Source of the DNA: Verrucomicrobiota bacterium
GTDB lineage: Bacteria > Verrucomicrobiota > Verrucomicrobiia > Limisphaerales > Pedosphaeraceae
Assembly (NCBI GenBank): GCA_021325145.1
Contig: JAJPHR010000097.1
Location: 1-64,000 of the forward strand
DNA: 64,000 nt
Reading direction: 5' to 3'
Notes under the pieces: model-generated
What the model was told of the DNA's origin: nothing
The model's input: only the letters and a program-made list of their open reading frames with translations
Databases searched by the model: none
Shown here: positions 1,649 through 60,330 of the stretch, one piece after another
How the letters are laid out: every line of letters starts with the position of its first letter
Numbering within the stretch: the stretch's first letter is position 1
Translations under genes and position numbers: made by a program

Positions 1649-2737
1649 CTACTCCCAATAAAAAGTTGAAATCTGAACATCCTTGGGATTATTCCGAATG
1701 AGGATTGCATGGCAAATCCGTTTGGACTGGCCGATTTGCGCGGTCACTTGCACGTCGAACGTCGAACTGCGAAAGGTACAAAGATTCGCCACCCCCTGTG
1801 CCGCCTGGCCCAGCGCGGTTTGAAACAACAAGTCCTGCGGAGCCCGATAAACCAGCACACCCGTTCCCTCGCCCGCACCCTGCTCCCGTGCCTGGATAAT
1901 CTGATCCGCAACCCGTTCATCAACGAGCGGTAGAACTTGCAACTGTTCCCGTGACGCAGTCAGGATGTTGATTCTGCCATTGGAGAAGGGCGTAAACAGG
2001 TCCATCAGGCCGGCGTTGGAAGGCGCCGCCGTGGGCAGGAGACTGGAGCGGGTCATGTCCTTCGCCCGTGCCGGCAACCCGGCGGTGGAGTGTTCCGCAG
2101 CATGCGGCCCCCAGTAAATCTCCGGCGTGATGCCTTTGATGAACAGCAATTCGGATATGTCATCGATGGGTCCGTTCTTCGCCAGATACGGCGGATCCAG
2201 CCCTTTGTAATATTCGCTCTCGGCTCCGTTGATGTGCGTGTCGTCATCGGTGTCGATCCAATCCTGGATTGAGGCAATGATCGTCGGCACATCCGCCGCG
2301 TCCACGCCGATTGACGTGAGAGCTTTCTGCATGATCTGCTCGTTCTGGGGATTGAGCGCGGTGTTGACGTTGAACTTCCTTTCCAAATCCGTGATTTTCA
2401 CCGTGAATTTTCCTTTGCCGAGTTCCACGTCGGTCAATGAATATTCGGACAACGGATCATTCGTATCCCCTTGTCCACCGGCCCAAATCTGATCCAGCGA
2501 ATCATACTGTTGCTTGGAATTCTTCAATTGCTCGGCCAGGAGAAATCGCGCGTATTCCACGCCGGAACGCCCGAGCCATTCCAGGTCGTTGGCGTCGTAG
2601 GAATTCATGGCGAGTTTGGTTTCCACCTTCATGGAATACGCGAAGATGCCGGCCAGCGAGGCCAGCACGAATATCGAGACGAGCACAATAATCAAGGCGA
2701 TGCCACGCCGCCGTTCGCGTCCAGGAACAATTTTCAT
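1649..2737 (-). CDS. gspK: Type II secretion minor pseudopilin GspK
   Basis: 362 aa. A short basic N-terminus is followed by a prepilin-like hydrophobic helix (RRGIALIIVLVSIFVLASL) with the processing site after RRG, then a long periplasmic domain with the SAM-like/helix-hairpin-helix segment 'INILTASREQLQVLP' near residue 255, characteristic of GspK. GspK caps the pseudopilus tip together with GspI and GspJ. Its ATG overlaps the stop of gspJ (ATGA), so the two are translationally coupled, and it is the last gene of the operon. As usual for GspK, position +5 of the mature protein is not the Glu found in the other pseudopilins. Confidence 0.88.
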   Translation of the reverse strand: MKIVPGRERRRGIALIIVLVSIFVLASLAGIFAYSMKVETKLAMNSYDANDLEWLGRSGVEYARFLLAEQLKNSKQQYDSLDQIWAGGQGDTNDPLSEYSLTDVELGKGKFTVKITDLERKFNVNTALNPQNEQIMQKALTSIGVDAADVPTIIASIQDWIDTDDDTHINGAESEYYKGLDPPYLAKNGPIDDISELLFIKGITPEIYWGPHAAEHSTAGLPARAKDMTRSSLLPTAAPSNAGLMDLFTPFSNGRINILTASREQLQVLPLVDERVADQIIQAREQGAGEGTGVLVYRAPQDLLFQTALGQAAQGVANLCTFRSSTFDVQVTAQIGQSKRICHAILIRNNPKDVQISTFYWE

Positions 2738-3648
2738 TGGGCACCCCCTCGCGGCAACGGAATTTGCTTGTTTCCTCCGTTAAGCGGCGGTTGTTGACCA
2801 CCGATACCCCCGACACCACCTGGACCGCCAATGGGCGGGCCGCCAGGGCCACCTATCGCCCCATTCCCCATGCCAATCGCCGGCAAGGCCACCACGCCAA
2901 ACATCAACTCCTGCGGCTGGCTGGAATATTGATCCAGCCGACCCAACCCGAGGGTGATGCGCACCATCTGTGGAAGCCGATTGGTGGTGGACCATTCGGT
3001 CGCCCAATCGCCGCTCTTTTGGTCCCAAAATTCCAGGATGAATTTGCTCACGTCCCTGGCCAGAATCAGCGGGTGTTCCTCTTCCACATGGTCGGGTTCC
3101 AACAGCAGCAACGGGTATTGGCGCAACACCAGGCAGTTCTTGGATTCACCCACGCTCTCCACCGTGAAGTTGAGACGCCGGACGTCCACACCGTCAAACC
3201 GGCCGGCCCTGGGAAATGTGCTGGGCAGCCGCGCCACGAAACTGAGCGAGGCGAATTCACCCTCCGTGTCCGCGACGAACCCGTAATACTTCCCATTCTG
3301 GGCGAACATGCACGTCGAAAGCAGCGCATCCTGCAATGTCCGCATGCTGATCCGGGAGCGTTGACTGGCTGCCGCCGCGTCCAGCCCCACCCGCGAGCCT
3401 TTCACAATCGCGTTCCAACCTGAGTAAATCGCCATCACTACCACGCTCAACAATGCGAGCGCCACCATGATTTCAAGCAAAGTGAAGGCGGAAGCACGGA
3501 GTCCCGGCTTTAACCGATAGAAGGCGCGTAAACGCGATCGACTGGAGAACCTTTCTGAGTGCCCGACACAACGAACGCCTGGCCGCCTGAAGGCGGGACT
3601 CCCTACCTCGGCGACGGCCGTACTTCTTTGGTTGTCGTTAAGCTTCAT
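2734..3648 (-). CDS. gspJ: Type II secretion minor pseudopilin GspJ with abnormally long leader
   Basis: 304 aa from the ATG at 3648, which overlaps the gspI stop as ATGA; the open frame continues further upstream but that part lies inside gspI. The prepilin motif A^FTLLEIMVAL begins at about residue 55, whereas leaders are normally 6-20 residues. No in-frame ATG, GTG or TTG exists between 3648 and the motif, so the long leader is forced unless CTG or another rare codon is used. The leader is encoded mostly by a dispersed palindromic repeat (3498-3607). The C-terminus is a Gly/Pro-rich tail (about 30 residues with repeated GGPGG/GGIGG). The remaining body matches PulJ-type proteins. Minor pseudopilin of the tip complex. 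Confidence 0.85.
   Translation of the reverse strand: MKLNDNQRSTAVAEVGSPAFRRPGVRCVGHSERFSSRSRLRAFYRLKPGLRASAFTLLEIMVALALLSVVVMAIYSGWNAIVKGSRVGLDAAAASQRSRISMRTLQDALLSTCMFAQNGKYYGFVADTEGEFASLSFVARLPSTFPRAGRFDGVDVRRLNFTVESVGESKNCLVLRQYPLLLLEPDHVEEEHPLILARDVSKFILEFWDQKSGDWATEWSTTNRLPQMVRITLGLGRLDQYSSQPQELMFGVVALPAIGMGNGAIGGPGGPPIGGPGGVGGIGGQQPPLNGGNKQIPLPRGGAQ
3498..3607. repeat. Palindromic repeat family A, copy inside gspJ leader
   Basis: The segment starts with GGAGTCCCGGCTTTAACCG and ends with CCGCCTGAAGGCGGGACTCC, i.e. two inverted GGAGTCCCG-containing hairpin arms about 110 bp apart. The same two arms occur at 27405-27512, with partial or rearranged copies at 9015-9080, 48137-48210 and 59361-59470. 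Here the whole unit is in frame with gspJ. Confidence 0.8.
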
Positions 3649-4070
3649 CGCGGCAGTCCTGGAGTCAGGCTGGTTGGTGAATTGGGCCGCCACAACAGCA
3701 CGGTCATGTGGCTCTGCACCGGCTCGGAGCCCGGAATGGTTGGCCCGGTGACGAGGTATTCGACCTGGAACAATCCATTCGTGCGCTCCGTTATTTCCGA
3801 GGTCCATCGGTAGCCCGGATATAGCTCGCCGAAATCCCCGGAATCCGAGCCTTCTGCCAATTGGTTCGTCAGGGATAATTGGGAAATCAGCATGCTCGCG
3901 TCCACCCGCTGCTGCTGCAACAGTCGCGCATTCCGCAAGGTGTTGGACATCAGGCCGAGAATCGCGAACATCGCCATGAAGAATATGCCAATGGCGACCA
4001 TCACCTCAATCAAGGTGAAGGCTGCGCGGGAACGGCGCGTACAGGTTTTGGGGTTATCGCCGGTTCTCAT
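3645..4070 (-). CDS. gspI: Type II secretion minor pseudopilin GspI
   Basis: 141 aa. Basic leader of 17 residues ending RRSRAA, then the prepilin motif FTLIEVMVAIGIF with Glu at +5 of the mature form. The methylated Phe and Glu5 are the usual determinants of processing and assembly. Length and the downstream beta domain fit GspI. It overlaps the end of gspH by 17 bp and its stop overlaps the gspJ start. Alanine rather than glycine at -1 is shared with GspJ here and may be a preference of the local prepilin peptidase, which is not in the window. Confidence 0.85.
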   Translation of the reverse strand: MRTGDNPKTCTRRSRAAFTLIEVMVAIGIFFMAMFAILGLMSNTLRNARLLQQQRVDASMLISQLSLTNQLAEGSDSGDFGELYPGYRWTSEITERTNGLFQVEYLVTGPTIPGSEPVQSHMTVLLWRPNSPTSLTPGLPR

Positions 4071-4680
4071 AACTGAGCGTGTCCACCTGGGCCAACCCGG
4101 TCACCACTTCCAGTGTAATTTTGCGTTCCTCTCCCCGGTCGCTCTGCAGCACAATGGTCAACTCATCGCTGGTGCCGTCCTGATAAAATTTCACCACGGC
4201 GTCATCCGCGTCGGTGAAGTCCTGGAAGTTCACCCCCAGAAGTTCGACGCGAATCCGGTCGGAAAACTGGGCGGAAGTCTGCGTGAACGAACCTTCCGCC
4301 CCACCCGCCAACCCGCCGCCAGTGAGACTGAGACGCCCATCCCGCATGTTAATATGCAGTTCCACCGTGGTTTCCTTGAATACCGCGCGCGCGCGCGCAT
4401 TGCGGCACAGGTCCGTCACATCCCTTACCGCCGCGATCATGGCCTCCTTGTTCATCATGTGGTAGATGGAAGGAATGCCCATCGCCAGGACGATTCCGAG
4501 GATGGCCACAACGAGCATGATCTCGATCAGGGTGAACCCGCGGTTCGAGCGGGAACAGCGCGCTGCTCCCGGAACGCGGAGCTCCGGCTCTGCGCGAACC
4601 TGAAAGCCATCAACACGCAGAGCAGGAGCTCTGCGCTCCGACCGAGCGGCAGTCCACCCTCCTGAACGATCCAAGTTCAT
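4054..4680 (-). CDS. gspH: Type II secretion pseudopilin GspH with repeat-derived leader
   Basis: 208 aa from ATG 4680, which overlaps the gspF TGA by one base (TGATG); a GTG at 4683 is possible too. Prepilin cleavage site RG^FTLIEIMLVVAILG lies after about 48 residues, far beyond the common leader length. The leader has no internal ATG/GTG/TTG start and is largely encoded by a hairpin-forming repeat at 4571-4640. After the N-terminal helix come the helix-rich 'RDVTDLCRNARARAVF' region and a beta domain typical of GspH/FimT. Minor pseudopilin linking the tip complex to the major pseudopilin. Confidence 0.85.
   Translation of the reverse strand: MNLDRSGGWTAARSERRAPALRVDGFQVRAEPELRVPGAARCSRSNRGFTLIEIMLVVAILGIVLAMGIPSIYHMMNKEAMIAAVRDVTDLCRNARARAVFKETTVELHINMRDGRLSLTGGGLAGGAEGSFTQTSAQFSDRIRVELLGVNFQDFTDADDAVVKFYQDGTSDELTIVLQSDRGEERKITLEVVTGLAQVDTLSYENRR
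4571..4640. repeat. Hairpin repeat family G, inside gspH leader
   Basis: Two arms, CGGAGCTCCGGCTCTGCG (4577-4594) and a complementary GC-rich arm containing CGCAGAGCAGGAGC (4616-4629), can pair. The 16-mer CACGCAGAGCAGGAGC recurs exactly at 34905-34920, followed in both places by a similar short segment, showing that this is a dispersed element rather than native gspH sequence. Confidence 0.65.
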
Positions 4681-5960
4681 CACCGGGCAATGTTCGAGGT
4701 CATCGCGAACATGGCGGAAAGAACACTCACCAGCAGGAACGCGACGCCCATGGCCATGACCACGATCATCACGGGCTCGATCATGTTGGTCATCACTTTG
4801 AGAGCGATGGTTAACTCGTTTTCGTAGGTATCGGCGATATTGCGCAAGGCGCTGGGAACGTTGCCGGTTTCCTCGCCGATTTTCAGCAAATCAACCATGA
4901 GTTGCGGAAAGATTTTGCTGCGAGCCAGTGGTTGGGCGATGGTTTTACCGTCCGTCACCTCTTCGCGCGTCTTCGCGATGGCCGCTTTGATGATGCGGTT
5001 GGGCACGATTTGTTCGGTGATTTGCAGGGCGGTCAGAACGGGCACGCCATTTTCCAACAGCGTGGCCAGGGTGCGGGCAAACTGGCCGAACAAGTTCAAC
5101 CGCACCGCCTTGCCAAAGACCGGCGCGTTCATCTTCCAATGGTCGATCTTGAGCTTGCCTTCTTCCCGGGAGCGAAACCACTGAAAGATACCGAGAATCG
5201 CCACCACAACCAGAATCATCAACCACCAATAACCGCTGAAGACATGGCTGATGGTGATGAGAATGCGTGTCGCGAGCGGCAACTCGATGTTCATGCCTTC
5301 GAAAATCTGCATGAACGTCGGCAGCATCTTCGTCATGAACAAAAACATGATGATGCCTCCCACCGTGATCACAAACGCCGGATAAATCAGGGCGGAAGTG
5401 AACTTCGATTGGACTTGGGAAAACCGTTCATAATGGTCCGCCAGACGCCGAAGGACGTCCACCAGCGCGCCGCTCTGCTCGCCGGCGCGCACCATGTTGA
5501 TGTAAAGGTCCGAGAAGATAACTCGCTGCTTGGACATTGCGTCCGAGAGGCTACGGCCTTCCATGACTTCCTGCTTGAGCTGCTTGCTGATGTCGGCTGG
5601 TATCCCCTTGGATTCCAGGTGTGTCATGCTGTTGAGCGCGACAGTCAGCGGCATGCCGGATTGGAGCAGGTTGGCCAATTGCTGGGTAAAGGTTGCCAGT
5701 TCCTGGAGTTTGGGCTTGCGCGGGCGAAAGATGAACTCGCGCACCGAAGGGGGAAGATAGGAGGCCCAGGCTGCCTTGTCGCCCTTTGGTTTCTCAGCTT
5801 CCGCGGCCGCGGCAACGCTGCCTTTGGAGCCATCCACCATGATGGGAAAGAGCCCCAGACGTTCGATCTGGACGAGCGCCGCCGAGCGGTCCGGTACATC
5901 CACCACGCCCTGGACAGTTTCCCCGGTCCGGCGTCGGGCTTTATATGCAAATTGTGGCAT
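4680..5960 (-). CDS. gspF: Type II secretion inner-membrane platform protein GspF
   Basis: 426 aa. N-terminal MPQFAYKARRRTGETVQG is the hallmark of the GspF/PilC family. Two T2SSF cytoplasmic domains (about 75-195 and 280-400) alternate with three membrane segments, near residues 200-225, 245-265 and 390-420. GspF is the platform that couples the secretion ATPase to pseudopilus assembly. It is the first gene of the coupled gspFHIJK set; gspC, D, E, G, L and M are not next to it, so the remainder of the machine must be elsewhere, or the proteins could serve a related type IV pilus-like system. About 125 bp separate it from larE upstream. Confidence 0.93.
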   Translation of the reverse strand: MPQFAYKARRRTGETVQGVVDVPDRSAALVQIERLGLFPIMVDGSKGSVAAAAEAEKPKGDKAAWASYLPPSVREFIFRPRKPKLQELATFTQQLANLLQSGMPLTVALNSMTHLESKGIPADISKQLKQEVMEGRSLSDAMSKQRVIFSDLYINMVRAGEQSGALVDVLRRLADHYERFSQVQSKFTSALIYPAFVITVGGIIMFLFMTKMLPTFMQIFEGMNIELPLATRILITISHVFSGYWWLMILVVVAILGIFQWFRSREEGKLKIDHWKMNAPVFGKAVRLNLFGQFARTLATLLENGVPVLTALQITEQIVPNRIIKAAIAKTREEVTDGKTIAQPLARSKIFPQLMVDLLKIGEETGNVPSALRNIADTYENELTIALKVMTNMIEPVMIVVMAMGVAFLLVSVLSAMFAMTSNIAR

Positions 5961-9094: not shown

Positions 9095-11761
9095 TCAACT
9101 CTTCCCGGCGACCCAGCGGTCGATAGCCGGCAACTCGCGCTGCTTTAACGCGGCTTTGAGGCGGATTTGTTCGGCGGTTTCCCTGGCTTTTGTCAATGCG
9201 TTCTCGGAAATGTTCGCCTTCACATAGGCCTCCAATTCATCCGCGCGGGCGGCATCGTTAAAGGCGCCGAGAATCGAAGGAATATAGGCGTTGCGACGAA
9301 AGGCTTCGAGCCGGCTGAGCAGGTCCTTAACGTGCTCCTTCGCAAAAGTCCAGGCCAACTCTTTCTGTTCACCCGCTTGAGCGACCTCGACCACGAATTG
9401 AGTGGTTTCCTGTGGGACGGTTTCGTCGGTGAGAGAAAGCGCGAGCGTGCTTTTGGCAAGTTCCGGATCGAGAGCGCCCGCCATGGCGAAATAATAAAGC
9501 CGCCGCTCCTCGGTGCCTTTGGCTCTCCGCGCGAGTTCGTGGAGTTGGTCGTAGGTGGTGCGGTCGGCGTAGCGGCCGGCGATCCGCAACACCGGCATGC
9601 GCAACTCAGCCGGCAGGGAATCGGGCACCGCCAGGAATTTGGCAAAACGCGCGCGGGCTTCGGCAACCACGGATTCGTCGTCGAAAAGCCCGAGGCGAAG
9701 AATGACGCTGGTGCGAAGCAAGGCATCCTGGCTCGATTCACCCGCCCGAGGCTCCCAGCCGAGGCGCTGCAGTTGCGGACGCAACAGGGCCGTCGCGTAA
9801 AGTCGAAAGGCGGCGCGGCCCGGTTGGTCCGCTTCCAGCGCATCGATGCGGTCGAGGCCCGCAAGGATTTGGCCCCAGACGGCATAGGCTTTTTCCTTGC
9901 GCAATAATTCCACAAAATCCAAATAATCCGTTACGGAAGCGCGATTGGCTTCCACCATGGCCCAGGTGTCATTCAAAAGATTCAAACGATCAGGGATCGA
10001 CAGGGAAGTGTCCTGTCGCAGCTTCGCCAGCAGCGTGGGCTCATAGGCAACCCGGTAAAAACCGGTGTTGCCGGCATTCGCTTTAAAGGTGGTGGAACAG
10101 TTGTCCAGCGTGATTGACGCGGACTTTCCTTCGAGGAGGGTTTGATGCACGGCGCTTTTGCCACCCAGTTCTGTCCAGGCCACGGGAATCTTCCATTCTA
10201 ACGGCCTGGCGTTCGGGTCCTGCACCGTAAAACGTTCCTGTTTCAGCGTGACCACCTGATGGCCGTTGAGGCAGTCCGCTTTGACATTCACGACCGGCAG
10301 GCCGGGTTGTTCGGTCCAACCGGCCGCGATGGCTCTCACCGGTTTGCTCGAAGCGTGTTCGAGGGCAGCCCACAAGTCCGCGGTGGTCGAGTTCGAGTAA
10401 CGATGGTCAGATAAATACTCATGCAGGCCCTTGCGGAACGGTTCTTCACCAAGATAGTTTTCGAGCATGCGGAGAAAGGCTTGTCCTTTGCGGTAGGTGA
10501 TCTGGTCGAACGCGTCGTTCGCCTGGCTTTCGTTCTCCACCCGTTGCTGGATGGGGTGCGTGGTCTTGCGCGCGTCCTCGCTCATGACGTTCGAGCGGTC
10601 GGCGTCAGCCATTAACCAGACTTCCCATTCAGGGTTGAAATGGTCGGTGGCCTTGGTGCCCATCCAGGAGGCGAAGCCTTCGTTGAGCCAGAGGTTGTCC
10701 CACCAGGCCATCGTCACCAGATCGCCGAACCATTGGTGGGCCATTTCGTGGGCGATGACAGCAAAGACACCGCGCCGGGTTTCCTGGGAGCTGGTTTTGG
10801 GATCGAACAACAGCCGACGCTCGTTGTAGGTGATGCCGCCCCAGTTCTCCATTGCGCCGGTAAAGCCGCCGGGAATCGCGATTTGGTCGAGCTTGGGCAA
10901 CGGAAACTTGATGCCAAAATAACTATCGTAGTAAGCGAGGATTTTTTCAGTCGCTTCGAGGGCATATTTGGCCTGGGCGCGCTTGCCCTCGGTGGTGATG
11001 ACGCGAATTTTTACGCCATCCGCTTCGCCTTCGAGTGCTTCAAGCTCACCGGAAACAAGCACGACGAGATAACTGGCCATCGGCGGAGTGCGCATGAATT
11101 TGACTTCCTTCAAACCGTTCGCATTGGGCAAGGGTCGTTCGCGCTCGATCGGCGTGTTGGAAATGGCGAGGTGTTTGGCAGGCACGACCACCGTCAGCTC
11201 ATAGGTCGCGCGAAATACCGGCTCATCCCAGCAAGGGAACATGCGCCGCGCGTCGGTCGGCTCCATCTGGGTGCCCAGCATGACTTTTCGTCCGGCAGGC
11301 GTGGCATATTTCACGTAGTACAATCCTTGAGCGCGATCGGTGATCAGGCCGTTGAACTCGATGGCCAGCCGGTATTTCCCCGGCGCGATTTCCCCCGCTG
11401 CATCCGGCGAGGAGAGAGTTAATGTTTGTTGCGCCGGGTCGAGCTTGGGCTGCCAGGGCGTTCCCTCCTTGCGTTCGCCCGCGGGGCTCAAAGTCGCTTT
11501 GGTCACTTCCAAGTCCAGCGCATTCAAAACAATTTCCCGCACGGGCTTCTTCACCTCGATGTCGATCTCCACGTTTCCGCGGGTGGTAAACTTATCCAGG
11601 TTCGGTTCGAGATGGAGCGCGTAGTGGCGCGGGATCACGGCCTTGGGAAGTTTGCCGGGCGTGGACTCGAAGGAAAACCGGCCTTCCGCCGCCACGGCAA
11701 GGCAGCTTGCGGCGAGAAATGGAAGGAGGATGAAACCAAGAGTGATGGATGACACACGCAT
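9095..11761 (-). CDS. M1-family zinc aminopeptidase, exported
   Basis: 888 aa from ATG 11761; the frame is open further upstream but this ATG gives a classical signal peptide (MRVSSITLGFILLPFLAASC...AVAAEG), whose Cys could also be a lipobox-like residue. The exopeptidase motif GAMENWGG (about residue 305) and the zinc site HEMAHQWFGDL...NEGFASW (HExxH plus a Glu 19 residues on) are intact. The C-terminal half is an ERAP1_C-like helical domain. Expected to remove N-terminal residues from peptides in the periplasm, feeding peptide uptake. Upstream lies an inverted-repeat element (11813-11996) separating it from the M23 gene, which points the same way. Confidence 0.92.
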   Translation of the reverse strand: MRVSSITLGFILLPFLAASCLAVAAEGRFSFESTPGKLPKAVIPRHYALHLEPNLDKFTTRGNVEIDIEVKKPVREIVLNALDLEVTKATLSPAGERKEGTPWQPKLDPAQQTLTLSSPDAAGEIAPGKYRLAIEFNGLITDRAQGLYYVKYATPAGRKVMLGTQMEPTDARRMFPCWDEPVFRATYELTVVVPAKHLAISNTPIERERPLPNANGLKEVKFMRTPPMASYLVVLVSGELEALEGEADGVKIRVITTEGKRAQAKYALEATEKILAYYDSYFGIKFPLPKLDQIAIPGGFTGAMENWGGITYNERRLLFDPKTSSQETRRGVFAVIAHEMAHQWFGDLVTMAWWDNLWLNEGFASWMGTKATDHFNPEWEVWLMADADRSNVMSEDARKTTHPIQQRVENESQANDAFDQITYRKGQAFLRMLENYLGEEPFRKGLHEYLSDHRYSNSTTADLWAALEHASSKPVRAIAAGWTEQPGLPVVNVKADCLNGHQVVTLKQERFTVQDPNARPLEWKIPVAWTELGGKSAVHQTLLEGKSASITLDNCSTTFKANAGNTGFYRVAYEPTLLAKLRQDTSLSIPDRLNLLNDTWAMVEANRASVTDYLDFVELLRKEKAYAVWGQILAGLDRIDALEADQPGRAAFRLYATALLRPQLQRLGWEPRAGESSQDALLRTSVILRLGLFDDESVVAEARARFAKFLAVPDSLPAELRMPVLRIAGRYADRTTYDQLHELARRAKGTEERRLYYFAMAGALDPELAKSTLALSLTDETVPQETTQFVVEVAQAGEQKELAWTFAKEHVKDLLSRLEAFRRNAYIPSILGAFNDAARADELEAYVKANISENALTKARETAEQIRLKAALKQRELPAIDRWVAGKS

Positions 11762-11812
11762 GTTGAAAGAGTGTTTCAAACACCGATGGGCGTCAACAGG
11801 AAGGGTTGGGTT

Positions 11813-13124: not shown

Positions 13125-13186
13125 CAATTTTTGGGGTGGGAGATTGTCAGTTAGATATGCGGCTGGCAAGGCCGCAACGGAAGAAA

Positions 13187-13314
13187 AACACCAAATTCCA
13201 AGCACCAAGCACCGGAAAAGCTCCAAACAGCAAACACCAATGGGCGACTTAGGCGCTTTGGAGCTTGTAACTTGGTGTTTTTCTGAAGTTTGGTGCTTGA
13301 AATTTGGTGTTTCC
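13187..13314. repeat. Heptamer arrays b, head-to-head inverted pair
   Basis: About eight AARYNCC heptamers on the plus strand (13187-13240) face a complementary array (13258-13314) across an 18-bp centre, so either strand can fold into a long imperfect hairpin. It lies between the M23 gene and the GH43-like gene, both transcribed leftward, and could act as a transcript end of the GH43 gene. Gene-like frames across it are translations of the repeat and are not supported. Confidence 0.8.
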
Positions 13315-27404: not shown

Positions 27405-27512
27405 GGAGTCCCGGCTTCAGCCGGTGGGGCCATCGCATTGGGAAGCAGGTTGAAAGTTCTCGAAGTTATCGTGTCTGAGTATGTCCCGCCGCCTAAAGGC
27501 GGGACTCCATGC
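27405..27512. repeat. Palindromic repeat family A, full intergenic copy
   Basis: Begins GGAGTCCCGGCTTCAGCCGG and ends CCGCCTAAAGGCGGGACTCC, with 68 bp between. This shows the intact arrangement of two inverted arms in non-coding DNA, between pilT and the small PilZ-like gene, and is the reference for the in-frame copies in gspJ and the U32 gene. Confidence 0.8.
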
Positions 27513-32069: not shown

Positions 32070-33904
32070 AGGGCGTGTTTGATTGGCTCGACAATCGCGC
32101 CGGGGTGCGGAAGCTGGCCAAAGAGGCGCTCTACGAAAATGTGCCGGGCGGCGCGCGCTGGCGTTACGTGTGGGGCAGCACGCTGACGTTTGCCATCGGC
32201 GTGCAGTTCATCACCGGGATTTTCCTTTGGATGGGTTACAGCCCCAGCGCGCAGACGGCCTGGGAAAGCGTGAACTACATTCAGAGCGAAATGTCCGGCG
32301 GCTGGCTGCTGCGGGGCATTCATCATTACACGGCGCAGGTCATGACCGTGCTGCTGGTGCTGCACTTGATGCAGGTGGTGATTGACGGCGCGTACAAAGC
32401 GCCGCGCGAGGTCAACTTTTGGTTTGGCCTGCTCCTGTTGCAACTGGTGCTGGCGCTTTCGCTCACCGGGTACCTGCTGCCGTGGGACCAGAAGGGATTT
32501 TGGGCCACGAAAGTCGCCACCAACATCATGGCCATTGCGCCGGTGGCCGGACCAGCTTTGCAAAGGATTGTCATCGGCGGAAGCGATTACGGACATCACA
32601 CGCTGACGCGGTTTTTTGCGCTGCACGCCGGTGTTCTGCCCGGGGCGTTGATCGCCTTGATCGTTGGGCATGTCTATCTGTTCCGTTTGCACGGGTTGAA
32701 GGCCAGGGAGCCGAAACGCAAGCCGGATGCCACGTTTTGGCCCGACCAGGTGTTGATGGATGCCGTGGCGTGCCTGGCGGTGATGGCCGCGGTGTTGTTT
32801 CTCATCGTGCGGCATCGGATTTTTTCCCCCACCGGGCAGCTTGGGGCCGAGTTGGGCGCGCCGGCTGATCCTTCCGAACCGTATTCCGCCGCCCGCCCGG
32901 ACTGGTATTTTCTTTTCCTGTTTCAATTCCTGAAATATTTCCCGGGCCATACCGAAATCTGGGGGGCGATTTTTATTCCGTCGCTTTTGCTGGCCGTGGT
33001 GTTTCTCATGCCGATCCTGGGCCGATGGAAACTGGGACATCGTTTTAACCTGGGGTTGCTGGGCGCAGTGCTGGCGGGCGCCGGGTTGCTGACGTTTCTC
33101 GCGCTGGCGGAGGACCGGCACAATTCCGATTACCAGTTTGCGGCAAAGAACGCGGAGCGCGAAGCCGAACGCGCCAAGGCGCTGGCGAATTCGCCCGCGG
33201 GCGTTCCGGCGGGCGGCGCGGTGGCCTTGCTGCGCGCGGACCCGTTCACACAGGGTCCAAAACTCTTTGCGGAACACTGCGCCAGTTGCCATCGTTTCGA
33301 CGGGCATGATGGAACCGGGAGGCCCGTCAAGGACCCACCAGTGGCTTCGGATTTGAAGGGATTTGGTTCCCGCGCCTGGCTGACCGGATTGCTGGATCCG
33401 GAACGAATCAGCACCACCAATTATTTTGGCGGCACAAAATTCAAGGACAGCAAGATGTCCAAGTTCGTGAAAAAAGACGTGGCGGGGTACACGCCGGAGC
33501 AGAAGGAGCAGTTGAAAAAGGTGATCGCGGCGGTTTCAGGCGAGGCGAAGCTGAAGGCGCAACAAGCGGACGATTTGCGCGACCAACCGCTCATCACCGA
33601 AGGCTGCGATCTGCTCAAGAACGCGATGAAATGCACGGATTGCCATCAGTTCCATGCCAGGGATGAGGAAGCAACCGCGCCGGACTTGACCGGCTGGGGT
33701 TCGCGCGACTGGCTCGTGAAGTTTCTCAATAATCCGGCCCACCCGGACTTTTACGGCGCGCGGAACGACCGCATGCCGGCGTTCGGTGAGAAGCAGATTT
33801 TGGATGCGATGCAAATCGGCTTGCTGGCGGATTGGCTGCGGGGCGATTGGTACGAAGCGGAGGAGGCCGCAAACACCAAAAGCCAAACACCAAGCCCCAG
33901 ATAA
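32066..33904 (+). CDS. Cytochrome b fused to a C-terminal diheme cytochrome c
   Basis: 612 aa from ATG 32066. Residues 1-210 are the cytochrome b N-terminal domain (His ligand segments 'GIHHYTAQVMTVLLVLHLMQ' and 'GHHTLTRFFALHAGVLPG', PEWY replaced by PDWYFL near residue 275). Residues 230-370 are the subunit IV-like part. After a Glu/Ala-rich linker come two c-type hemes: CASCHRFDGHDG near 411 and CTDCHQFHARD near 524, with 'MPAFGEKQ' a likely Met ligand. Together with Rieske it makes a compact quinol-cytochrome c oxidoreductase of two genes. The last 12 residues (about ANTKSQTPSPR) and the stop are encoded by a heptamer array. Confidence 0.92.
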   Translation: MKGVFDWLDNRAGVRKLAKEALYENVPGGARWRYVWGSTLTFAIGVQFITGIFLWMGYSPSAQTAWESVNYIQSEMSGGWLLRGIHHYTAQVMTVLLVLHLMQVVIDGAYKAPREVNFWFGLLLLQLVLALSLTGYLLPWDQKGFWATKVATNIMAIAPVAGPALQRIVIGGSDYGHHTLTRFFALHAGVLPGALIALIVGHVYLFRLHGLKAREPKRKPDATFWPDQVLMDAVACLAVMAAVLFLIVRHRIFSPTGQLGAELGAPADPSEPYSAARPDWYFLFLFQFLKYFPGHTEIWGAIFIPSLLLAVVFLMPILGRWKLGHRFNLGLLGAVLAGAGLLTFLALAEDRHNSDYQFAAKNAEREAERAKALANSPAGVPAGGAVALLRADPFTQGPKLFAEHCASCHRFDGHDGTGRPVKDPPVASDLKGFGSRAWLTGLLDPERISTTNYFGGTKFKDSKMSKFVKKDVAGYTPEQKEQLKKVIAAVSGEAKLKAQQADDLRDQPLITEGCDLLKNAMKCTDCHQFHARDEEATAPDLTGWGSRDWLVKFLNNPAHPDFYGARNDRMPAFGEKQILDAMQIGLLADWLRGDWYEAEEAANTKSQTPSPR

Positions 33905-34117
33905 ACACCAAGCACCAAGCTCCAGATGAGAGTCTATCTCGGTAGGGCGCGTCACTCCGTGCGCGCCGACGACGGGCAGAGGACTGCCCGCCCTACCGAG
34001 ATAGGTTCTAAGCGCCAACATCCAAACACCAGGAATGCGGATGTTGTCTTGGAGCTTGGTGTTTGATGCTTATCTGGAGCTTGGTGCTTGGTGTTTATCT
34101 GGTGCTTGGTGTTTGCG
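33870..34117. repeat. Composite: heptamer arrays d flanking a family B element
   Basis: Forward AARYNCC array (33870-33927), then family B (33933-34007), then further heptamers (34010-34040) and a reverse array (34045-34117). Bases 33903-33927 and 34072-34096 form a perfect 25-bp inverted repeat, so the whole block can fold as a large stem with the family B hairpin at its tip. The left end reaches into the cytochrome b-c gene. Confidence 0.85.
33933..34007 (-). repeat. Family B inverted-repeat element, copy 1 (reverse orientation)
   Basis: Ends TATCTCGGTAGGGCG... and ...CGCCCTACCGAGATA are terminal inverted repeats of about 15 bp enclosing internal palindromes (GGGCAGAGGACTGCCC; GCGCGTCACTCCGTGCGCGC). 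About 75 bp, non-coding. Opposite orientation to copies 2 and 3. Confidence 0.85.
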
Positions 34118-34904: not shown

Positions 34905-34920
34905 CACGCAGAGCAGGAGC
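34905..34920. repeat. Family G hairpin repeat, partial copy
   Basis: The 16-mer CACGCAGAGCAGGAGC is identical to bases 4614-4629 inside the gspH leader, in a similar context (both followed closely by a GC-rich segment and a TGATGGCT/AGCCATCA-type stretch). It lies in the 640-bp gene-free interval 34819-35460. Confidence 0.5.
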
Positions 34921-34972
34921 CCGGCGTTCCCTTTTTGATGGCTGGGCGTTGCGGTTAATGTGGATACTTCTG

Positions 34973-45189: not shown

Positions 45190-45232
45190 GTTATCATATA
45201 GGTCGTAAAAACAGCGGAAAGGTGACAGGAAA

Positions 45233-45294
45233 TAAACACCAAATTCCAAGCGCCAAACTCCAGAGAAATTCCCAGTTCCAAATACCAAAAGCAC
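45233..45294 (+). repeat. Heptamer array e
   Basis: About eight AARYNCC units (AAACACC, AAATTCC, AAGCGCC, AAACTCC, ...AAATACC) directly upstream of the sigma-fusion gene and antisense to it, in the 336-bp divergent interval 45190-45525. The interval holds no other gene; the ORF continuing upstream of the sigma factor start is a translation of this array. Confidence 0.78.
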
Positions 45295-57681: not shown

Positions 57682-60330
57682 ATGGTCGGCATTGAAACCA
57701 TCTCAGTCACCGAAAACGGGAATCGCGAATCACCTTCGCGAGCTGCCGCCGTCATGCCTGAGTTGCTCGCGCCGGCGGGCGATTGGGAATGCGCCCGCGC
57801 CGCTGTGGAAAATGGCGCGGATGCGATCTACTTCGGTCTCGAACGATTCAATGCCCGGATGCGCGCCCACAATTTCACCGAGGCCGATTTGCCGAAACTG
57901 ATGGAGTTCCTGCATCGCCGCGGGGTCAAAGGTTACGTCACCTTCAATACGCTGGTGTTTGCCAACGAAATGGCGGAGGCGGAGCAGTACTTGCGCGCCA
58001 TCATCGCCGCCGGGGTGGATGCCGCCATCGTGCAGGACATCGGCATCTGCCGGCTCATCCGTCAACTCTCGCCCGATTTCCCCATCCACGCCTCGACTCA
58101 AATGACGGTCACCAGCGCCGGTGGAGTCGCCTTTGCGCGTGAACTGGGTTGCAACCTCGTCGTTCTCGCCCGTGAATGTTCATTGAAGGAAATCGAAAAA
58201 ATTCAATCGGTTCAGTTCGGCTCCGCGCTCCAAACCTCGCACTCCGCACTTCCCCTGGAGGTTTTTGTTCATGGCGCGTTGTGCGTAGCCTACTCCGGCC
58301 AATGCCTGACCAGCGAGGCGCTTGGCGGACGTTCGGCCAATCGCGGAGAGTGCGCCCAGGCTTGTCGCATGCCCTATGAACTGATCTCTGACGACAAACC
58401 GGTTCCGCTCGGAGACAAGCGTTACCTGCTCAGTCCACAGGACCTGGCGGGATTGGAAATGTTGCCCGAATTGATCCGCCTCGACCTGGCTTCGCTCAAA
58501 ATCGAAGGCCGCCTTAAAACTCCGGAATATGTGGCGAACATCACCCGCATCTACCGCCAGGCGCTCGACGCGGCAACTCATCAATCTCGTAGCAGCCGAC
58601 GTGAGGGGGCTCCAGCTTCTCCCCAAACGGGCGAAACCCGCTACGACCTGGAGATGGCCTTCTCGCGCGGTCTTTATACCGGCTGGTTCGGCGGCAACAA
58701 CAACCAGAAACTCGTCCACGCCCGGTTCGGCAAGAAGCGTGGCGTCTATCTCGGTGAAATCCTTCGCCTCCAAGGCGAACGCATTGTCCTGAAGCTCGAG
58801 TCCCCGCTCAAGCCTGGCGACGGCATTGTTTTTGATGCCGGCCATCCGGATGAAAAAGAGGAAGGCGGCCGCGTCTATACTCTGGAAACATGCGGCAAGG
58901 AAACTTTCGTTGGGTTCGGTCGTGGCGATTTGGATTTCACTCGCATTCATGCTGGGGATCGTTTGTGGAAAACCAGCGACCCGGAACTTGACCGCCGCAT
59001 CCGCCAAACTTTCGAGGGCGATCAACCACGGTTTCGACGTCCGATTTCGATCGAAGTTCACGGCCACGCCGGAACGCCGATGACCCTGATCGCTCGCGAC
59101 GAATCAGGCCACGTCACCCAAGTGAATTCCGCCATGCCGCTGGTCGTCGCGGAAAAGCAGCCGTTGAGCACGGAAAAATTGCGCGAACAATTGGGCCGCC
59201 TCGGCGGCACGCCGTTCGAACTGGGTGAATTGAAAAACCAACTCACCGGGCCCGTCATGTTGCCCGTTAGTGAGTTGAACCGCCTGCGTCGCGAAACCGT
59301 GAGCGCACTGGAAACGTTGCGCGCGCAACCCAGACGCTGGACGCTGAACCCCGCGAATCATGAAGCCCCGCCTGCAGGCGGCACAACGCTCGCAAATACG
59401 ACGACCGGGAGCGTAGCCAATGTGTCCGGCTTGGCGCACGCCACACCGCCTGAGAGCGGGACTCCCTACTTTCCGAGAGCAGCCGAATTGATCGTCCTCG
59501 TCCGCAACCTTCCCCAACTCGAAGCCGCCCTGAATTGCGGCGTGCAGACGCTCTACTGCGAATTTGAGGACCCGAAGAAATACCGCGAAGCCGTGTCCAT
59601 GGTGCGTTGCGTAGGCGATTGCACCACGCCCAACCGCACCATCTGGGTCGCGCCGCCGCGCATTTTCAAAATGGGCGAGGAATGGATTCTAAAACAAGTG
59701 CGTTCATGCGACGCGGACGGTTACCTCGTTCGGAACTACGATCATTTCGAGTTCTTTGCCGGCTGTCGGCGCGTGGGCGATTTCTCGTTGAATGTCGCCA
59801 ATCGTCTCGCCGCGGATTATTTCAAGAACCGTTTCGGCCTGGAACGAGTCACGGCATCATACGATCTGAACTTCACCCAATTGGAAGCCCTGCTTCAATC
59901 CGCGCCGCCGGAATGGTTCGAGATCACGATCCACCAACACATGCCCATGTTTCACATGGAGCATTGCGTGTTTTGCGCATTTCTTTCGAGCGGCACGGAT
60001 TACACGAACTGCGGACGACCTTGCGACAAACATTCGGTGAGACTCCGCGACCGCGTCGGCGCCGAGCACCCGCTCAAGGCCGACCTCGGTTGCCGAAACA
60101 CCGTCTTCAACGCGCTCGCCCAGACCGGCGCGGAATACGTGGCGCGAATGATCGCCCTCGGCGCGCGGCATTTCCGCATTGAGTTTCTCACTGAGACACC
60201 GGACCAGGTTTCCCGCACGATCGCCAAGTACCGCCAGTTGCTTCGCGGCGAAATCGACGGCGCGCAACTATGGAGAGAATTGAAACTCCTCAACCAACTT
60301 GGCGTCACGCGGGGCCAGATCGCGCATTGA
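57682..60330 (+). CDS. U32 peptidase-family protein (RlhA/YegQ type) with two repeat insertions
   Basis: 882 aa from ATG 57682, which has AAGGAA 6 bp upstream; the family core begins at 'MPELLAPAGDWECARAAVE' (residue 25). The 4Fe-4S cysteines are in order C-x6-C-x15-C-x3-C ('CVAYSGQC', 'RGECAQAC') near residues 200-225. The C-terminal domain (about 600-880) has further Cys, 'HMEHCVFCAFLSSG' and 'TNCGRPCDKH', as in long U32 members. Related enzymes hydroxylate tRNA, rRNA or ubiquinone precursors. Two linkers, near residues 300-318 and 560-597, are encoded by dispersed repeats (58578-58632; 59361-59470). Confidence 0.85.
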   Translation: MVGIETISVTENGNRESPSRAAAVMPELLAPAGDWECARAAVENGADAIYFGLERFNARMRAHNFTEADLPKLMEFLHRRGVKGYVTFNTLVFANEMAEAEQYLRAIIAAGVDAAIVQDIGICRLIRQLSPDFPIHASTQMTVTSAGGVAFARELGCNLVVLARECSLKEIEKIQSVQFGSALQTSHSALPLEVFVHGALCVAYSGQCLTSEALGGRSANRGECAQACRMPYELISDDKPVPLGDKRYLLSPQDLAGLEMLPELIRLDLASLKIEGRLKTPEYVANITRIYRQALDAATHQSRSSRREGAPASPQTGETRYDLEMAFSRGLYTGWFGGNNNQKLVHARFGKKRGVYLGEILRLQGERIVLKLESPLKPGDGIVFDAGHPDEKEEGGRVYTLETCGKETFVGFGRGDLDFTRIHAGDRLWKTSDPELDRRIRQTFEGDQPRFRRPISIEVHGHAGTPMTLIARDESGHVTQVNSAMPLVVAEKQPLSTEKLREQLGRLGGTPFELGELKNQLTGPVMLPVSELNRLRRETVSALETLRAQPRRWTLNPANHEAPPAGGTTLANTTTGSVANVSGLAHATPPESGTPYFPRAAELIVLVRNLPQLEAALNCGVQTLYCEFEDPKKYREAVSMVRCVGDCTTPNRTIWVAPPRIFKMGEEWILKQVRSCDADGYLVRNYDHFEFFAGCRRVGDFSLNVANRLAADYFKNRFGLERVTASYDLNFTQLEALLQSAPPEWFEITIHQHMPMFHMEHCVFCAFLSSGTDYTNCGRPCDKHSVRLRDRVGAEHPLKADLGCRNTVFNALAQTGAEYVARMIALGARHFRIEFLTETPDQVSRTIAKYRQLLRGEIDGAQLWRELKLLNQLGVTRGQIAH
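58578..58632 (+). repeat. Family F half-repeat inside the U32 gene
   Basis: TCGTAGCAGCCGACGTGAGG plus GGGCTC corresponds, with four differences, to the left arm of the complete element at 60355-60430. It is in frame and codes for an Arg/Ser-rich linker. Confidence 0.65.
59361..59470 (+). repeat. Family A repeat inside the U32 gene
   Basis: Left arm GAAGCCCCGCCTGCAGGCGG, right arm CCGCCTGAGAGCGGGACTCC, about 110 bp overall: the same spacing as in gspJ and the intergenic copy at 27405-27512, in frame with the U32 gene. Confidence 0.7.

Follow-up and report, generated by a model that had tools for sequence, protein, structure and literature searches.

The window, that is, the whole stretch of 64,000 nucleotides that was analysed, belongs to a genome of 6.78 Mb in 112 contigs, with Pedosphaera/Limisphaerales MAGs as its nearest named relatives, and it carries on its minus strand a type II secretion pseudopilin cluster made up of gspF, gspH, gspI, gspJ and gspK (Pfam T2SSF, T2SSJ, T2SSK, N_methyl; Table 1). 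Each of gspH, gspI and gspJ begins right at the preceding gene's stop codon or overlaps it, and the genome also encodes a prepilin peptidase domain (PF01478). At the beginning of the window, positions 1–315 apparently hold part of a minus-strand 16S rRNA gene, the 5′ end of which, AGAGTTTGATTCTGGCTCAG, was placed by eye near 290–310, and a bioD-like gene at 825–1514 adjoins it, also by eye.

Table 1. Genes, leaders, repeat copies and in-frame captures; positions are those of the window, and captures outside the leaders are given by locus.
Feature	Position or locus	Strand	Basis or remark
gspF, upstream gene; stop codon overlaps gspH start	4680–5960	−	Pfam T2SSF 1.7e-57
gspH-like pseudopilin gene	4054–4680	−	N_methyl 1.5e-8; matches in 58/58 genomes searched
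gspH leader, 48 codons, from coupled ATG (4680) to cleavage site RG↓FTLIE	4537–4680	−	ATG directly on gspF stop (TGATGAACTTG)
Family G inverted doublet (REPIN-like), 69 bp = 23 codons, in gspH leader; arms 4571–4594 and 4616–4639 perfect	4571–4639	−	arm matches
gspI-like pseudopilin gene, ordinary 17-aa leader (internal control)	3645–4070	−	N_methyl 2.3e-5
gspJ pseudopilin gene	2734–3648	−	Pfam T2SSJ 4.2e-6, N_methyl 7.3e-6
gspJ leader, 54 codons, from coupled ATG (3648) to cleavage site SA↓FTLLE	3487–3648	−	ATGA overlap with gspI stop
Family A inverted doublet (REPIN-like) in gspJ leader; arms 3583–3602 (perfect) and 3497–3516 (2 mismatches)	3497–3602	−	arm matches
gspK-like gene, downstream end of pseudopilin cluster	1649–2737	−	Pfam T2SSK_1st 1.7e-21
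Family A copy, both arms perfect	27405–27508		arm matches
Family G single arm, 2 mismatches	34907–34930	−	arm matches
Family A degenerate copy	59361–59470		sequence comparison
A/G capture, HrpB-like helicase, between DEAD and Helicase_C	L041		read-through frame; insert at gap/between matched segments vs solved homologue
A/G capture, MidA-like methyltransferase	L042		read-through frame; insert at gap/between matched segments vs solved homologue
G capture, GlnE	L063		read-through frame; insert at gap/between matched segments vs solved homologue
A/G capture, sensor kinase	L057		read-through frame
A/G capture, PMT-family membrane protein	L058		read-through frame
G capture, FlhF-like SRP54-type GTPase	L081		read-through frame
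A/G capture, glycosyltransferase	L033		read-through frame

Class III (prepilin) leaders are hydrophilic and cytoplasmic, precede a G/A↓FTLxE motif, are cut by prepilin peptidase and have a described range of 6–26 residues (PMC4471445). The leaders of gspH and gspJ lie outside this range, as do those of up to 95 residues in relatives, and they are built from repeats. Their lengths, and the intact cleavage motifs behind them, had been pointed out in an earlier sequence-only reading and are confirmed here, PF07963 (N_methyl) matching above its cut-off in both GspH and GspJ as a hydrophobic helix with Glu5 after G/A↓F. The residue that precedes the cleavage in gspJ (window position 3487) is Ala and not Gly, as is frequent among orthologues in the order, in contrast to the “invariable” Gly of the described bacterial pilins (PMC4471445). 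Both captured leaders are net positive (+5 and +9), which fits the positive-inside rule.

The same reading had stated that no in-frame ATG, GTG or TTG lies between the coupled starts and the cleavage sites, and this holds throughout for gspJ, and for gspH with the exception of a TTG at codon 3, before the repeat. A non-ATG start beside the cleavage motif was also looked for and none is available: neither the gspJ leader after its start nor the final 27 leader codons of gspH contain ATG, GTG, TTG, CTG, ATT, ATC or ATA, and the sole other near-cognate codon in the gspH leader is a CTG 28 codons upstream of the cleavage, within the first arm of the repeat. Since no other start codon is available, the repeats of gspH and gspJ would be translated, unless initiation is highly unusual. 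For several REPs at the N-termini of ORFs in other species, Di Nocera et al. argued that the repeat is untranslated (PMC3733652), and it could be supposed here as well that initiation takes place at an unconventional codon beside the cleavage site, the repeat being a 5′ untranslated or inter-gene insert. However, besides this scarcity of codons, both inserts are open in the frame of the coupled ATG, several of the other frames having stops, and such an origin of the long leaders is very improbable.

In the same-family relative G003, the gspH leader is MNLRHSQPRG, 10 aa as opposed to 48 here, and the gspJ leader is MKFARHKSITA, 11 aa as opposed to 54; the gspF/gspH junction reads GCCCGGTGATGAACTTG here and GCCCGCTGATGAACTTG in G003, with the start junction TGATGAACTTG identical in the two. 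As G003 combines the same gspF-stop/gspH-start junction with a leader of 10 aa, the insertion lies inside the coding leader, and from the match at the junction together with the short leaders of G003 it follows that the ancestral start has been kept and that about 38 (gspH) and 43 (gspJ) codons have been added behind it.

Most of each leader is made up by the repeat, of family A in gspJ and of family G in gspH. Genome-wide, the A arm, GGAGTCCCGSCTTNAGSCGG, has 136 matches (≤2 mismatches) and none for the reversed control pattern, and the G arm, GGARCGCRGAGCTCCNGCTCTGCG, has 125 (≤3 mismatches), again with none for the control; the arms often form inverted pairs, 84 bp apart from start to start in A and 45 bp in G. 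These counts bear out the dispersal that had been claimed for the repeats, and the other copies quoted for them do exist (a clean A pair, a degenerate A copy and a single G arm; Table 1). Among the 83 readable prepilin genes of the genome (84 N_methyl matches), it is only in the leaders of gspH and gspJ that A or G arms are found. The G element measures exactly 23 codons and most of its copies have several stop-free frames, so that an open insertion in frame would be easy. In a comparison with the GTAG/CGTC tag, the A copy of gspJ reads GTAGGGAGTCCC, and most A copies have GTAT or GCAT before GGAGTCC.

As short palindromic units, dispersed, arranged in inverted doublets at fixed spacing and with more than 100 copies per genome, families A and G resemble the REPINs (PMC3116915), which in P. 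fluorescens SBW25 lie almost wholly outside genes (Bertels and Rainey, 2011). They differ from them in that none of the nine Y1_Tnp matches in the genome is a RAYT-type gene flanked within 1.5 kb by convincing arms of A or G; a link to RAYTs was therefore rejected and the families are termed REPIN-like.

The starts of 242 gspH, gspI and gspJ leaders were surveyed in 83 genomes of the order Limisphaerales, and the long leaders proved not to be common to the orthologues: the medians are 19, 18 and 14 residues, respectively, the gspH leader is of 10–11 aa in five genomes of the same family, and 23 of the 242 leaders have at least 40 residues. Repeat-bearing leaders with further copies in their own genome number 14 of the 242, a lower bound in that the DNA search of leaders against the genome of origin covered only the long ones; as G010 and L208 are closely related (97% identity in mature GspJ) and the gspJ event is common to both, these 14 are reduced to some 13 independent events. 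The median of the captured leaders is 56 aa, compared with 17 for the others.

The repeats of the gspI leaders of G002 and G025 each have about 37 copies in their own genome among the matches listed, and that of the gspI leader of G009 a dozen or more; those of gspH in G024 and of gspJ in G010 have several further copies each, and that of gspJ in L204, from a named MAG, which spans residues 8–44 of a 45-residue leader, about 25 copies at 83–92%, all among the matches listed. Leader repeats with further own-genome copies are also present elsewhere in named MAGs (L193 gspJ, L208 gspH and gspJ, L213 gspH and gspJ, L237 gspI). The captured repeats belong to many unrelated families, including REPIN-like doublets and arrays of ~10-bp units, and possible internal starts lie within the captured leaders of G009, G025 and G024. 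Between G010 (L103) and L208, the DNA of the mature genes is 90–91% identical and that of the gspH and gspJ leaders only 61–65%, a gap which indicates that the leaders turn over much faster.

It is not the case that every long leader contains repeats, and this idea was rejected: no clear further copies appear among the matches listed for the long leaders of gspI in G003, G007, L195, L200 and L225, of gspH in G009 and G010, and of gspJ in L205, nor for those of gspJ in G032 and G041, of gspH in G036 and L198, and of both gspH and gspI in G046, these last six being equally long without dispersed copies among the matches listed. Thus, length alone does not make a leader a recognisable repeat. In L242, the gspH and gspJ leaders look REPIN-like by eye, with no further copies among the matches listed. 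Apparent gene fusions within this operon were also observed, of gspJ with gspK in G022 (L140), where 639 residues follow the cleavage site, and of gspI with gspJ in L196.

The mature parts of the same proteins served as a control, and an alignment scan of their 44,330 residues found no repeat-like insertion; the insertions remaining there are a loop common to G001 and G005, C-terminal tails rich in Gly or Asn, and two cases of fused genes. Some 13 events in 4,703 leader residues (inserts excluded) against none in the mature residues correspond to a conditional binomial p of ~6e-14, to be read in the knowledge that the two counts were obtained differently, that of the leaders by own-genome repeat search of the long ones and that of the mature parts by the alignment scan, and that kinship was only crudely removed. 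If the four loop or tail insertions left unexplained are set against the leader count (13 vs 4), p is ~1e-10, and if the two prompting cases, gspH and gspJ, are left out (11 vs 0), the conclusion is the same. The expectation that long leaders would be found where the repeats are is therefore upheld, and over a wider range than had been foreseen; as far as it can be read from sequence, support also extends to a broader form of the earlier proposal, in which the prepilin leaders of Limisphaerales would time and again give shelter to dispersed repeats that are translated.

Families A and G are not restricted to leaders. Sixty A/G loci, about 55 distinct elements, were examined with their context by means of read-through frames and Pfam; a simple codon-usage score separated coding from non-coding flanks too poorly to provide a genome-wide intragenic fraction. 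At least seven other genes of the same genome have A or G captured in frame (Table 1), and in GspH, GlnE and the FlhF-like protein the G capture is in the same frame (ERRAPA..). Capture specific to leaders was accordingly rejected, and the leader would be one permissive site among others; in other words, the permissive landing site suggested by the sequence-only reading gains support beyond its two original cases but is not exclusive. Repeats predicted to be translated are a general feature here, and what is distinctive is their density in the prepilin leaders.

This density could be thought to reflect a tendency of repeats to gather at gene junctions generally, the leaders having been struck by reason of their junction position and not of their removal, given that REPs have been described chiefly from intergenic DNA and are in excess at the N-termini of annotated ORFs (PMC3733652), and that nearly all the captured leaders begin at a gene overlap. 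However, the repeats come after the overlapping start codon, which is conserved, and lie in coding sequence, and the captures in the interior of the HrpB-, MidA- and GlnE-like proteins indicate that a junction is not required, which makes an effect of the gene boundary unlikely.

A role at the level of RNA should also be considered, in which a hairpin just inside the coding region would tune the translation or the mRNA stability of the minor pseudopilins, leader length being a by-product. The gspH leader has an exceptional hairpin (−76.6 kcal/mol, z −4.88 vs shuffles), and REP hairpins have been proposed to act on mRNA (PMC3733652); but the fold of the gspJ leader is unremarkable (z +0.36), so that the hairpin attributed to both leaders was rejected and stands for gspH only. 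Furthermore, the elements in relatives are unrelated, with ~10-bp-unit arrays among them, and diverge quickly between close genomes, and gspI of the same operon has no repeat. We regard an RNA role as quite unlikely to explain the leaders, although an RNA effect may add to the situation in gspH, not in gspJ. As insertions of 38–43 residues are drastic, it might finally be imagined that gspH and gspJ were inactivated, or that the operon is decaying, and that the repeats are neutral debris; against this, the mature parts of GspH and GspJ keep their full length and reading frame and share up to ~50% identity with orthologues from the whole order, and the neighbouring gspF, gspI and gspK are intact, all of which renders decay extremely improbable.

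The explanation that we favor, and with good confidence, is that REPIN-like insertions in the coding leaders, behind the ancestral start, have been tolerated because the leader is cut off, and that insertions in the mature protein have been purged. Families A and G would be small mobile palindromes of REPIN-like type, inserted in frame and without stops downstream of the ancestral coupled start. All that would be asked of a prepilin leader is a hydrophilic cytoplasmic tail of positive charge, which prepilin peptidase then removes; the 38–43 added residues would never reach the pseudopilus, and the repeats would persist because the leader is disposable. The same tolerance would have led to the gathering of many unrelated repeats in the gspH, gspI and gspJ leaders across Limisphaerales, in such a way that insertions in the folded mature pseudopilin would be lost and those in the leader would stay. 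Translation through the repeat and cleavage by the peptidase are predicted from the sequences, and we infer that the mature insertions were lost by selection rather than by site choice; the density in leaders is compatible with tolerance after random insertion or with targeted insertion. In its widest form, to which we would give about an even chance, the removable prepilin leaders would be an order-wide safe harbour for mobile palindromic DNA, where insertions are taken in, translated, clipped off and replaced time and again, with a leader turnover much above that of the proteins behind them and, occasionally, new coding sequence or domains.

Palindromic repeats in frame are already known. 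The Rickettsia palindromic elements (RPEs), as related in PMC10969869, are mobile palindromes of ~100–150 bp that sit in frame within genes unrelated to one another and otherwise normal (Ogata et al., 2000, 2002). In the same manner, and here at the level of sequence, A and G are inserted in frame in conserved genes whose orthologues lack the insert, as seen for gspH and gspJ in comparison with G003 and for the HrpB-, MidA- and GlnE-like genes in comparison with solved homologues; they differ from RPEs in sequence and in phylum, and the RPEs are described from genes of metabolism, among others, while that review's account of them does not connect them with removable leaders. Closer at hand, intragenic GTAG/CGTC REP dimers encode 20–30 residues in frame, including cases in Opitutus terrae (Verrucomicrobiota) and in RNA helicases, with an N-terminal excess (Di Nocera et al., 2013, PMC3733652). 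These REPs share with A and G the insertion in frame and the presence in RNA helicases, and those of Opitutus the phylum as well, but the N-terminal cases of GTAG/CGTC REPs were mostly judged non-coding, and pilins are absent from the main text of that work. A literature search on palindromic repeats in Pedosphaera returned nothing relevant. It is the recurrent use of a disposable leader that appears to be new.

Such leaders constitute a countable natural experiment on the survival of translated selfish DNA, in that the stretch is obligatorily coding and its sequence is discarded. They would delimit the tolerance of prepilin peptidase and of membrane targeting, they may be a trial ground for new coding sequence, and they advise caution against the trimming of such leaders to a “normal” length by gene callers.

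Other prepilins of the genome also have long candidate leaders. Two adjoining ones (G000:C95:10669–10890 and 11551–11786; L142) have candidate leaders of 74 and 78 residues with internal GTG/TTG starts present, and in the second (C95:11781) the candidate leader contains a third dispersed family of ~10-bp units, in ~20 copies. In the window, dispersed inverted arrays of CACCAAGCACCAAG-type units at 13186–13312, 33884–34115 and 45230–45289 apparently belong, by eye, to the family of this C95 prepilin leader. In a further prepilin (G000:C84:42530–42700, minus strand; L150), the 57-residue leader is a DUF1289 domain (PF06945, E 7e-12) followed directly by the N_methyl motif, which may be either a real fusion or an effect of assembly or frame.
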